64,000 bases of DNA. Origin: Candidatus Saccharimonadales bacterium. GTDB lineage: Bacteria; Patescibacteriota; Saccharimonadia; Saccharimonadales; Saccharimonadaceae. Under the pieces are notes generated by a model, which did not search any database, had not been told where the DNA came from, and saw only the letters and a list, made by a program, of their open reading frames with translations. The stretch covers positions 217,232-281,231 of the forward strand of contig DASSDB010000002.1 in the NCBI GenBank assembly GCA_035697325.1, written 5' to 3'. A program made the position numbers and the translations under genes. This document shows positions 24,639 to 52,386 of the stretch, piece after piece (position 1 is the stretch's first letter; each line of letters begins with the position of its first letter).

Positions 24639-24676
24639 TTTTCCATGCCAAAAGTTTTATTTGCTATACTGTGGCT

Positions 24677-25540
24677 ATGAAGCCTGGTGGAACAAACAAA
24701 ACAATTCTCCAAAAAAATTTCTTCTCTACGGAATTGTTACTTCCTCTTATTTTGTTATCTTTAGCAAGTTATGGAGTGGTCCAATTGACGCCGCTGCTTA
24801 CTCACAATACTGGGGCGACCCAGCCCGCTACGTGGCAGCTTGTCATTGTAGGAGTAGGGATTATACTATTCAGTTCGCTTTTTCTTACCTATGCAGCTAA
24901 GCTTATCGGTCTCACGCGGGGGTGGTTGATATTGGGCGTGCTATTCAGCTCGTGTATGATAATCACGAAATTCATCCTTATTCCAGAAGCGCTTTACTCT
25001 CAAGTTTTTACTCTTAAACCCGGTGGATTTGATCCAAACAGTACGGGTGGGTATTTTACTATAGCAATCGTGTTATTTATTGTGTATGCCGCTATACTTA
25101 TGTCTACATATAGCTATCACCGTAAAAGAGTAGCGGCTGTGCTTGAGAATAAAGAGCTCATGATGGAAGAGCCAAAGAGCATGGCCATGGTAACTATACT
25201 TATTCTCCTGGGTCTTATTGCAGTGCTGGCATCGGGAGCTGGTGCTATTTTGCTATTTCCATTGTTCTTCCTTGGTGGGCCGGTGGATTATGTGAATTAT
25301 GCACTGGCGGGTGGAGGGATTGTTTTGGTCTTGATGACGGTAATGACGATCGTACTTTCATTAAAATATCTCCAGCATGCCTCAAACAAAGCTATCGAGG
25401 CAAAAGATGCGACTATTTTGGCGGTTACCTTTTGGATCGGCTTGTCGCTTATTTTGGTGTATCACGTACTATGGGTGATATTTATGGGCGTTCTTCTTGC
25501 CCTGTGGCCATTTAAAACGATCTCGCCAAGCGGAAAATGA
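24677..25540 (+). CDS. Polytopic membrane protein of the prenyl-lipid operon
   Basis: A protein of 287 residues from ATG 24677; TATACT ends 6 bases before it, so the operon mRNA is probably leaderless. About seven transmembrane helices are visible, with a charged loop near residues 155-175 (HRKRVAAVLENKELMMEEPK). Its stop overlaps the UbiA start by ATGA. It has no recognised family; as first gene of the operon it may transport or bind the lipid substrate. Confidence 0.7.
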   Translation: MKPGGTNKTILQKNFFSTELLLPLILLSLASYGVVQLTPLLTHNTGATQPATWQLVIVGVGIILFSSLFLTYAAKLIGLTRGWLILGVLFSSCMIITKFILIPEALYSQVFTLKPGGFDPNSTGGYFTIAIVLFIVYAAILMSTYSYHRKRVAAVLENKELMMEEPKSMAMVTILILLGLIAVLASGAGAILLFPLFFLGGPVDYVNYALAGGGIVLVLMTVMTIVLSLKYLQHASNKAIEAKDATILAVTFWIGLSLILVYHVLWVIFMGVLLALWPFKTISPSGK

Positions 25541-26526
25541 GGTATCTTCGCCTTCTTTTTCATATGATCCGCTATAAGTCGGCACTTGTTTTGGTGTTGT
25601 TTATGACACTAAGCTCGCTGATACACGATCCGGTGATCTCCCATGTTTTCAAATGGCAGACGCTTATTATGGCTGTGGCTTTGGTGTTGGTGTACGCGTG
25701 CGCTACTTGTATTAACGATCTTGCAGATTGGAAAATAGATAGGGTTAATTTGAAGGGTCATGCTGATCGACCGCTAGTAACCGGCGAGGGAAGCAGAAAA
25801 GATTTAATCATTCTTGGCATTATTGCGGCGATGGTTGCGATAAGCTTGGCACTCCTGATTAACCCCATTGCGGTGATAGTCGTATTACTGGGATTGGTGC
25901 TTAATGCAGCGTATTCTCTTCGTCCTCTACGGATATCACATCGCCCTATCCTTACGCCGTTTTATTTGGCGCTTTGTTATGTTCTTGTTGCGTATCTTGC
26001 CGGATTTGCAGTTGTATTTGCGGCAGAATTACAGTTTAATTGGCTGTACTTGAGCGCGTTTTATTTTCTCTTTTTGGCGCGCATTAGCCTTAAAGATTTT
26101 CGAGACAGAAAAGGCGATGCGCTAGCTGGAAAACCTACCTTAATCTTAAAGTATGGAAAAACGGCAGTATGCATGTTGAGCAGTACAGCTGTCGCTGTAG
26201 GAAGTATCCTTTTAATGATGGCGGTGAATAGGCCTTATTTACAGGTGGTAGTTGGAGGCTTTGCAGTGTGCCTTCTGGTCATTGAGTATAGATTGTATAG
26301 ATCACGGAGCGAGCTTCACGAACTACTCTCTGTGGGATATAGCGCGAGGGTGGGAAATGGGATATCTTTTGCACTTCTTGGTACGCTAGTGTTAGAGGCA
26401 AGCGGTGCAGCGACATCGGATATAGTCATTTTTTATGCCAGTTTGGTATTGCTTTATGCCTGGATGGTTTGGGATTATGTGAAGCATCCGGAGTCATTTT
26501 ACTTTGGTAAAAAGAAAGTCGTATGA
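25537..26526 (+). CDS. UbiA-family prenyltransferase
   Basis: A protein of 329 residues with about eight helices. The first Asp-rich motif is NDLADWKIDRVNLKGHADRP (about 62-81), matching the NDxxDxxxD signature that binds Mg-prenyl diphosphate. The second is KDFRDRKGD (about 186-194). UbiA enzymes transfer a prenyl chain to an aromatic or other acceptor in the membrane. The start and stop overlap neighbours by ATGA, so the four genes from 24677 to 27697 are one coupled unit. Confidence 0.88.
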   Translation: MRYLRLLFHMIRYKSALVLVLFMTLSSLIHDPVISHVFKWQTLIMAVALVLVYACATCINDLADWKIDRVNLKGHADRPLVTGEGSRKDLIILGIIAAMVAISLALLINPIAVIVVLLGLVLNAAYSLRPLRISHRPILTPFYLALCYVLVAYLAGFAVVFAAELQFNWLYLSAFYFLFLARISLKDFRDRKGDALAGKPTLILKYGKTAVCMLSSTAVAVGSILLMMAVNRPYLQVVVGGFAVCLLVIEYRLYRSRSELHELLSVGYSARVGNGISFALLGTLVLEASGAATSDIVIFYASLVLLYAWMVWDYVKHPESFYFGKKKVV

Positions 26527-27092
26527 GCGAGAAAGAATTCTTAGTTATTATAGGCCCTTCAGGCGTAGGAAAGACGAGTGCCGTCAAGGCTCTGAGCAGA
26601 CGGAAGGTTCTTCACCCTATTCCCTCTTGGACAACACGCTCTTTGCGACCTGGCGAAGAGGATGAGCGAGTTGACCATATCTTTGTTAGCGAAGAAGAAT
26701 TCGAGCGTCGTAGCAAGGCAGGTTTTTTCTTGGAAGAAGTACGAATGTTCGGATTGCCTTACAGGTACGGTCTGCCCAAAATTGAATTTAAGTCAGATAC
26801 GGTTGTTCCTGTTTTGTTACTTCGAGCGTCGCTCGTCTCCCTTCTTCGAAAACACTATAGTAATTACCGTATCTATCAGATTGAAGATAGTTTTGAGCGC
26901 GTAGCCAAGCGGCTTCGGCGGCGCGAAGAACAGGGCGAGGAACAGGGCGAACGGCTGGTAATGTATAAAAAGGAAATAGCCTTGGGAAGAAGTGTTGCCG
27001 ACAGGATAATAGAAAATAAGGAGGATCTTGAGGGGCTTAGTGCGAAAATCGAAGAGTACGTTCGGCAGGACTTTAAGGAGATCGTTACGTGA
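26523..27092 (+). CDS. P-loop kinase, guanylate-kinase-like
   Basis: A protein of 189 residues with the Walker A motif GPSGVGKTS at about residues 10-18, followed by SWTTRSLRPGE, which resembles the GMP-binding block of guanylate kinases. The second half diverges and contains RRREEQGEEQGER. A separate guanylate-kinase-like gene lies at 51637. Its place between UbiA and a polyprenol-kinase-like gene suggests a phosphate acceptor in lipid metabolism, for instance prenyl phosphate; this is inference. Confidence 0.75.
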   Translation: MSEKEFLVIIGPSGVGKTSAVKALSRRKVLHPIPSWTTRSLRPGEEDERVDHIFVSEEEFERRSKAGFFLEEVRMFGLPYRYGLPKIEFKSDTVVPVLLLRASLVSLLRKHYSNYRIYQIEDSFERVAKRLRRREEQGEEQGERLVMYKKEIALGRSVADRIIENKEDLEGLSAKIEEYVRQDFKEIVT

Positions 27093-27697
27093 TTGTCTTC
27101 CTCATTACGGCCTTTTATTTTCTGACACTCTTTATTGGGATTGAGTACATAGCGAGAAAGACTGCCGTCGTGACCGAGGTATCTCGTAAGTTAGCTCACA
27201 TACTCGCTGGCATCAGCGCAGCTTTTCTGCCGCTCGTGCTGCCATATCCCTCGATAGCCTTATTGGCCGGTGTATTTTTAATCGTGATGATGATTTCTCG
27301 GAAGTTGCACGTGTTTACCTCTATTCATGATGTGACACGCCGTAGCTATGGTGAACTGTTTTTTCCGATTGTGATTGGAGGCATGGCGTTAATTTTTCCT
27401 CAGAATATCCTTTATATGTATGGTGTCTTGGTGATGGCTTTAGCGGACGGATTAGCGGGATTGCTCGGCACTTTTTATGGCCGCGCGACATATAGTTTGG
27501 GAAGAGCACAGAAAAGTTATTTGGGAAGTGGAGTATTTTTTCTCGTTTGTGTGGGTATTGGTTGGGTGATGACGCCGCAAGAGAGTGTAATTATAATTGC
27601 GATTATTTTGACATGTGTAGAGGCGGTAAGCTCAAAGGGGTTGGATAATCTGCTTCTGCCGCCTATAGCAGCGATCCTTATGGCAGCTCTGGGGTAG
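27089..27697 (+). CDS. Phytol/dolichol kinase-like membrane protein
   Basis: A protein of 202 residues with about six helices. It carries the CTP-dependent polyprenol kinase signs: RKLAHILAGISAAF near residue 32, ADGLAGLLGTFYGR at about 113-126, and KSYLGSGVFF at about 136-145. Members phosphorylate phytol, dolichol or diacylglycerol using CTP. Gene overlap with the kinase and UbiA genes supports a joint pathway. Phosphatidate cytidylyltransferase is the nearest alternative. Confidence 0.8.
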   Translation: MIVFLITAFYFLTLFIGIEYIARKTAVVTEVSRKLAHILAGISAAFLPLVLPYPSIALLAGVFLIVMMISRKLHVFTSIHDVTRRSYGELFFPIVIGGMALIFPQNILYMYGVLVMALADGLAGLLGTFYGRATYSLGRAQKSYLGSGVFFLVCVGIGWVMTPQESVIIIAIILTCVEAVSSKGLDNLLLPPIAAILMAALG

Positions 27698-51569: not shown

Positions 51570-51636
51570 ATCTGAATTTTGGCTGTAAATTTCAACTGAC
51601 TAGTATACGCCACCAGTGTGTGGTATAGTTTGCCGT

Positions 51637-52386
51637 ATGGAAAAAGCTCTCCCCCAGTTGCATGATAAAAAAGCGTTTGAAAATGCGCTTTCAAACTATG
51701 AAGTTTCCGAGCACGGTCGACACGTACTTGCAGGCACGCCGTTCGTGGCTATGAGTAGTGTGTCAGGGGGCGGCCGTAACACGATTATTCGCCGACTTGT
51801 TGAAACGGGAAAGTACGTGTTCGCTGTATCCGACACCACGCGCCCGCCTAAAGTTCGCGACGGCCGTCTGGAAGTGGACGGAGTTGACTATTACTTTCGT
51901 GATGAAGCGGCGATGCTTAAAGATATTCAGGCGGGAGAATTTATTGAGGCCGAGATAATTCATAATCAGCAGGTCTCCGGTACTAGTATTCGTGAAATTG
52001 AAAAAGCGGCGAGTACGGGTAAGATTCCGATTCATGATTTTGAGTACGGGGGGATTAAAAACGTTATAAAAGCCAAGCCAGATGCAATTATTATCGGACT
52101 GGTTCCGCCCAATTACGATGAGTGGATTCGCCGATTGTATAATCGTGAGCCGCTTCATGATCAAGAGTTCTTTAATCGTTTGGTTACTGCGGAGAAAGTA
52201 CTTGAAAATATGCTTTCTCACGACTACTTTAAGCTTTTGGTTAACGACTCTACCGAGGAATGTGCAGAGGAACTTCGCAATGTAGTTGAGCAAGGCGAGT
52301 ATACGCCCCAGATGATAGAGCGTGGCAGGCATGTGACAGAAGCGTTGCTCGCCGATGTGCGTAAAGAACTTGTCTTGCGAAACTAG
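51637..52386 (+). CDS. Guanylate-kinase-like protein with degenerate P-loop
   Basis: A protein of 249 residues from ATG 51637; TATAGT lies 7 bases upstream. The GMP-binding-like block VSDTTRPPKVRDGRLEVDGVDYYF is clear, but the Walker A segment reads SSVSGGGRNTI, without the usual GKS/T. The second half is helical. It may be a weak kinase or a regulatory relative. Its stop lies within the CIRCE of hrcA. Confidence 0.75.
   Translation: MEKALPQLHDKKAFENALSNYEVSEHGRHVLAGTPFVAMSSVSGGGRNTIIRRLVETGKYVFAVSDTTRPPKVRDGRLEVDGVDYYFRDEAAMLKDIQAGEFIEAEIIHNQQVSGTSIREIEKAASTGKIPIHDFEYGGIKNVIKAKPDAIIIGLVPPNYDEWIRRLYNREPLHDQEFFNRLVTAEKVLENMLSHDYFKLLVNDSTEECAEELRNVVEQGEYTPQMIERGRHVTEALLADVRKELVLRN

Follow-up and report, generated by a model that had tools for sequence, protein, structure and literature searches.

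A candidate prenol salvage operon encoding a guanylate kinase-like protein, a UbiA-family transferase and a SEC59-like protein in a Candidatus Saccharimonadales bacterium

Background

In plants and cyanobacteria, isoprenoid alcohols are salvaged by a prenol kinase (VTE5), a prenyl-phosphate kinase (VTE6) and a UbiA-type transferase (HPT or ChlG). VTE6 belongs to COG1836 according to a passage of PMC9782597, which also describes the prenol and prenyl-phosphate kinases identified as few and all from photosynthetic organisms. Here we analysed an operon within a 64,000-nucleotide stretch (hereafter the window) of a Candidatus Saccharimonadales bacterium (assembly GCA_035697325.1, contig DASSDB010000002.1, positions 217,232 to 281,231), for which a first-pass annotation had proposed the same three steps acting on a scavenged prenol. 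The operon appears to follow the logic of the plant and cyanobacterial systems, and its candidate first kinase is of the SEC59/VTE5 type. Its candidate second kinase, however, is soluble, contains a P-loop and falls in the guanylate kinase (GMK) superfamily, not in COG1836, and the genes stand together in one operon. None of the four operon proteins gave a Pfam match indicating VTE6-type homology (COG1836/DUF92). The chemistry would be that of the already known VTE5/VTE6 salvage, and the second kinase may represent a family not recognised before. By title or abstract, no paper treating this cluster was found in the open-licence literature, which is no proof of novelty.

Results and discussion

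The operon consists of four open reading frames in one run on the + strand, between 24.67 and 27.70 kb of the window. The first gene, g1 (24677..25540, with a GTG start at 24671 also possible), encodes a multi-pass membrane protein of ~287 aa, a likely partner of the UbiA-family intramembrane prenyltransferase encoded next (25537..26526, 329 aa). They are followed by gmkL (26523..27092), encoding the soluble P-loop protein and candidate prenyl-phosphate kinase, and by a gene (27089..27697) for a small dolichol/phytol kinase-like membrane protein of the COG0170/SEC59 type, a candidate prenol kinase dependent on cytidine triphosphate (CTP). All junctions are 4-nt overlaps, ATGA at 25537 and at 26523 and GTGA at 27089; the genes, the coordinates and the first two junctions are as first annotated, and only the third had wrongly been given as ATGA. 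The gene structure is directly established, the four genes being real and translationally coupled.

We judge the chances to be about even that the operon converts an isoprenoid alcohol via prenyl phosphate and prenyl diphosphate into a UbiA product. The SEC59/VTE5-like membrane kinase (27089-27697) would phosphorylate the prenol, probably with CTP, and GmkL (26523-27092) would turn prenyl phosphate into prenyl diphosphate, which matches the phosphate-to-diphosphate chemistry of its relatives acting on guanosine monophosphate and ribose 1,5-bisphosphate. UbiA (25537-26526), helped by g1, would then pass the prenyl group to an acceptor. The scheme of two kinases and UbiA, as first proposed, fares better than had been anticipated: the linkage across two phyla, the UbiA type and the missing pathway markers hold up, as detailed below; the substrates of both kinases are putative, and no match related the P-loop protein to VTE6.

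The linkage of the genes is conserved. Genome searches for gmkL, in which 8 first-look candidates per genome were scored and which divergent copies could escape, gave strong matches in three of 392 Saccharimonadia, namely the source genome, G343 and G128 (E 6e-80 or better, the next match being at 1.3e-22). A fourth gmkL came from a scan of the collection, on a contig (GC 57-63%) of a Propionibacteriaceae metagenome-assembled genome (G430), and strong matches were present in 3/391 Propionibacteriales (G430, 5.7e-77; G504, 4.2e-53; G817, 1.7e-35; next 1.7e-22). UbiA directly adjoins gmkL in all six genomes with a strong match, so that the association goes beyond chance. Three of the six clusters, from two phyla (the window, G343 and G817), hold gmkL, the SEC59-like gene and UbiA, and in each of these three the gmkL and SEC59-like genes overlap by 4 nt. 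The SEC59-like gene of G343 overlaps gmkL by ATGA in an order reversed relative to the window, and in G817, a 7.2-Mb actinobacterium, gmkL overlaps the SEC59-like gene by ATGA in the window order, with UbiA convergent. Furthermore, the UbiA tree unites the G128 row with the three actinobacterial ones (96/97), which makes gene transfer likely, and the cluster has thus probably been transferred between Actinomycetota and Saccharibacteria. On plasmids, tblastn with gmkL gave partial matches only (23 records, none reaching 80% query coverage), and searches with G817 proteins gave no match.

GmkL matched the Pfam family Guanylate_kin (4.9e-11), in agreement with the P-loop kinase first annotated. 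Its best match in NCBIfam was the GMK model TIGR03263, with 70.7 bits and far under the equivalog cut-off of 160.45. The TTRxxR arm of GMK holds the acceptor phosphate, and the DxF, YGT and DID positions are those that we take to contact guanine. When six GmkL members were aligned with Gmk (b3648) and PhnN (b4094) of E. coli, the GPSGxGK[ST] P-loop and TTRxxR were kept in 6/6. The guanine-contact positions were replaced in every member: His stands for Tyr of the DY/HY-x-F site, YGT reads YGL or YAL, the DID site reads xLR, and ~9 residues before this last site are absent. Because the guanine positions are lost in all six, GmkL is not a plain guanylate kinase, and the pattern fits a kinase that adds a phosphate to a phosphate without reading guanine. 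A tree that took in 3 of 12 intended canonical GMKs placed these in a supported clade (96/94), and the gmkL rows were not resolved as one clade versus PhnN, which sits on a long branch; in a separate tree a four-row gmkL clade was supported (93/95). Structure predictions (mean pLDDT ~52) were of too poor a quality to be used.

These data also bear on another explanation, in which GmkL is a real guanylate kinase that supplies ordinary guanosine diphosphate, or another nucleotide, and lies beside UbiA through shared regulation or transfer. A PF00625 search of the source genome gave two matches, and the other one, a second guanylate-kinase-family gene outside the cluster (51616..52386, + strand), encodes a protein that has lost the Walker Lys (GGGRNT), while the P-loop of GmkL is intact and TIGR03263 is its best NCBIfam match. 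Set against this are the guanine-site residues lost in 6/6, the rarity of strong gmkL in the class (3/392 genomes) and the adjacency of UbiA in 6/6, and we regard this explanation as very improbable. A plain nucleotide kinase was for the same reasons, the lost guanine site and the great rarity of strong gmkL, rejected as the leading interpretation. The degenerate GGGRNT Walker A of the second protein also occurs in a Saccharibacteria metagenome-assembled genome (locus L090, 1781-2509).

A further possibility is suggested by the resemblance of GmkL to PhnN, the ribose 1,5-bisphosphate kinase. Both share three acceptor-side positions (His at DxF, a hydrophobic residue after YG, Arg near DID), and a PhnN-like kinase making phosphoribosyl pyrophosphate for a phosphoribosyl-transferring UbiA would also account for all three genes; the G128 GmkL is nearest PhnN in NCBIfam, and the G128 cluster sits among polysaccharide genes. 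UbiA-family phosphoribosyltransferases do exist, as passages of PMC11127046 and PMC10994848 describe. However, GmkL lacks the ~9 residues that PhnN keeps, lies outside any phosphonate operon and scores 39.4 bits to PhnN TIGR02322 (36-56 across the members) against a cut-off of 156.

The UbiA protein speaks more for a prenyl-diphosphate-using type. As first annotated, it is a UbiA transferase (Pfam UbiA, 2.2e-31, 109.5 bits, cut-off 34.2), with the motifs NDxxDxxxD and KDFRDxxGD intact. Among the class genomes 22 had a UbiA match; wide stretches were examined for 15 including the source genome, and the 8 best (E up to 1e-25) were used, the other 14 being unclassified. In the alignment both Asp motifs, NDxxDxxxD and KDxRDxxGD, are invariant in 9/9 rows. 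Searched against PDB, the profile of the nine relatives found chlorophyll synthase (9sau, 1.3e-15) and DGGGP synthase (6m31, 6.4e-14); the DPPRS structure was not among its matches, taken to E = 1. In NCBIfam the protein scored 77-78 bits for ChlG and prenyltransferase models, far under cut-off like all NCBIfam equivalog scores, so that no named equivalog (ChlG, DGGGPS, HPT) was reached, and only 26.3 bits for the DPPRS model NF008977 (cut-off 234). DPPRS/PPPRS (Rv3806c) belong to the same UbiA superfamily and share motif 1, whereas the second motif here is Asp-rich (KDFRDxxGD), as in users of prenyl diphosphates. According to an excerpt of its description, PPPRS (ORF15) needs R366 and E369 in the second motif; at what is presumed to be the corresponding place, all nine rows have Asp-Asp (KDFRD). 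The protein resembles a prenyl-diphosphate-using UbiA, and we consider the phosphoribosyl explanation quite unlikely.

The membrane protein encoded by g1 gave only a weak, sub-threshold match to BrkB in Pfam. By phmmer it has homologues in G332 and G154 (1e-20 to 1e-24), each immediately preceding UbiA. In the other five gmkL loci g1 is replaced by another small membrane protein, tmB, which in G430 is a weak match (0.0013) and in G343 was assigned from its position and C-terminal end, the G343 copy being one of the profile members. The tmB-type proteins beside UbiA at L133:6010-6603, L132:1823-2362, L034:9965-10594 and L030:8456-9184 end in KC[LMY], and a relative in L088 (8245-8868) ends in SSPKFL. 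Prenylation of a C-terminal Cys, considered in view of the KC[LMY] ends in 4/5 tmB proteins, was dropped, as the G430 copy ends in SSPKFL and the window holds no tmB.

The SEC59-like protein of the window had no match of its own in Pfam or NCBIfam. Its family, aligned in 25 rows, carries the motif SRKxxH...RRSYGExFFP...ADGxAxxxG...KSxxGS...GxDN, the protein has ~6 transmembrane-like segments, and the alignment contains a conserved AD..A..G..G...KS..G, presumably the motif of dolichol/phytol kinases (COG0170). CTP_transf_1 was matched weakly by three of the 25 relatives (best 0.0023) and not by the window protein. The phytol/dolichol kinase-like identity first annotated is suggested by the family motif and these weak Pfam matches. 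In a profile search single-copy SEC59-like genes were found in 112/392 class genomes, most of them without this UbiA, which elsewhere suggests a housekeeping undecaprenol kinase. This role was rejected for the cluster copy: G343 has two SEC59-like genes, one in the cluster and one housekeeping, and the former is a separate paralogue because the latter is also there. The same genome has a farnesyl diphosphate (FPP)/geranylgeranyl diphosphate synthase, and no UppS was found in it (92% complete).

The need for a prenol source was examined in the source genome (1.03 Mb, 99.87% complete), as the first-pass annotation had recommended. No match was obtained there for IspH (positive control found in 10/14 genomes), IspG (9/14), GHMP kinases, which comprise IspE and most mevalonate kinases (14/14), or the FPP/geranylgeranyl diphosphate synthase family PF00348 (14/14). 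Every marker tested is thus missing, mevalonate synthase and reductase not having been searched for, and the genome is without isoprenoid synthesis as far as tested. It nevertheless encodes UppS and, read by eye within a cyo operon, the heme-O synthase CyoE; both consume FPP and so need it. Because no route to isopentenyl diphosphate or FPP was found, a prenol must be taken from outside. A full isoprenoid pathway together with a plain nucleotide kinase, the combination first named as speaking against salvage, is not what this genome holds: the markers are absent and the guanine positions of GmkL are lost in 6/6. Among 13 Saccharibacteria tested (the source genome and 12 others) IspG was found in 0, PF00348 in 5 and UppS in 10, and on the supply of isoprenoid precursors reports so far (passages of PMC6031116) say no more than that they are scavenged. 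The cyo terminal oxidase operon lies outside the window (L001), with an NDH-2-like gene next after CyoE; FPP synthase is missing from this genome.

Several points weigh against the prenol salvage reading. Every substrate and the acceptor are inferred, as are the use of CTP and the direction in which the pathway would run, and the activities are candidate activities. The SEC59-type assignment draws on the motif and weak Pfam matches, and a PDB search with the family profile gave no match. The comparison of neighbourhoods, which the first-pass annotation had called for, found the kinase pair and UbiA together across two phyla, but the SEC59-like gene is missing from three of the six gmkL clusters. 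Moreover, the DID site of GmkL and the residues that follow its YG resemble PhnN more than they do a lipid-binding site, and the G128 GmkL is closer to PhnN (56.4 bits) than to GMK (49.8 bits). Finally, in G430, an actinobacterium, the gmkL-UbiA pair coexists with IspG, a marker of the methylerythritol phosphate pathway, and 389/392 Saccharimonadia have no strong gmkL match, the 12 other Saccharibacteria tested also being without IspG.

The same observations do not sustain the earlier suggestion that the cluster suits an epibiont scavenging from its host. Salvage is not needed in G430 because the methylerythritol phosphate pathway is present there (IspG), and epibionts are not the only bearers of the cluster, which is found in three Propionibacteriales as well, G430 among them. 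Nor is gmkL a general answer to the isoprenoid need of Saccharibacteria, because 389 of the 392 genomes lack a strong match; these bacteria would usually obtain isoprenoids in another way. A particular prenylated product is more likely to be served by the cluster than a general isoprenoid supply.

If the prenol salvage reading is true, GmkL fills the long-missing polyprenyl-phosphate kinase step, and the operon would illustrate one way for bacteria without isoprenoid synthesis to obtain FPP for UppS and heme-O synthase. Only tentatively, and with more doubt than confidence, do we propose that soluble P-loop prenyl-phosphate kinases form a new family with GmkL as its founder, supplying a step that lacks a gene except in plants and cyanobacteria, that it travels with a dedicated UbiA and the SEC59-type kinase between Actinomycetota and their Saccharibacteria-type epibionts, and that it helps to turn scavenged prenol into a prenylated membrane molecule not described before. 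Both candidate kinases lie beside the enzyme proposed to consume their product in a compact cluster, so that E. coli offers a direct test of the question.

The relatives of the cluster also raise a glycerolipid route, in which the SEC59-like protein would phosphorylate diacylglycerol with CTP, like yeast Dgk1, and UbiA and GmkL would form or activate a membrane lipid with an ether or prenyl modification. In G281 a UbiA of this subfamily is joined in one protein with a PlsC-like acyltransferase, near CDP-alcohol phosphotransferase, cyclopropane synthase and GNAT genes, GNAT and PlsC-like genes are near UbiA in G179 too, and DGGGP synthase is the second structural relative of UbiA. We hold this route to be unlikely, given that those lipid genes are found neither in the window operon nor in G343 or G128, and that the single-copy SEC59-like genes (112/392 genomes) mostly occur without this UbiA.

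Other phosphotransferases are paired with UbiA elsewhere. In G179 and G335 a phosphotransferase of the PPDK_N/PEP-utilizers type lies next to the same UbiA subfamily. For the SEC59-like protein, plasmids yielded a single match, in Roseinatronobacter sp. S2, within an operon (L108:523-8507) that encodes a UbiA from a different subfamily, a PPDK-type kinase, DUF3419, the SEC59-like protein, a GNAT-like protein and an AMP-binding enzyme. The plasmid UbiA has a homologue in the second UbiA of G335 (7.7e-15), and the SEC59-like protein is fused to a second membrane part. We read these loci as independent pairings of UbiA with a phosphotransferase, which is suggestive and no more. At L033:3917-5557 a Saccharibacteria genome carries a UbiA fused to a PlsC-like acyltransferase, beside CDP-alcohol phosphotransferase, GNAT and cyclopropane-fatty-acid synthase genes, possibly an isoprenyl-acyl lipid pathway.

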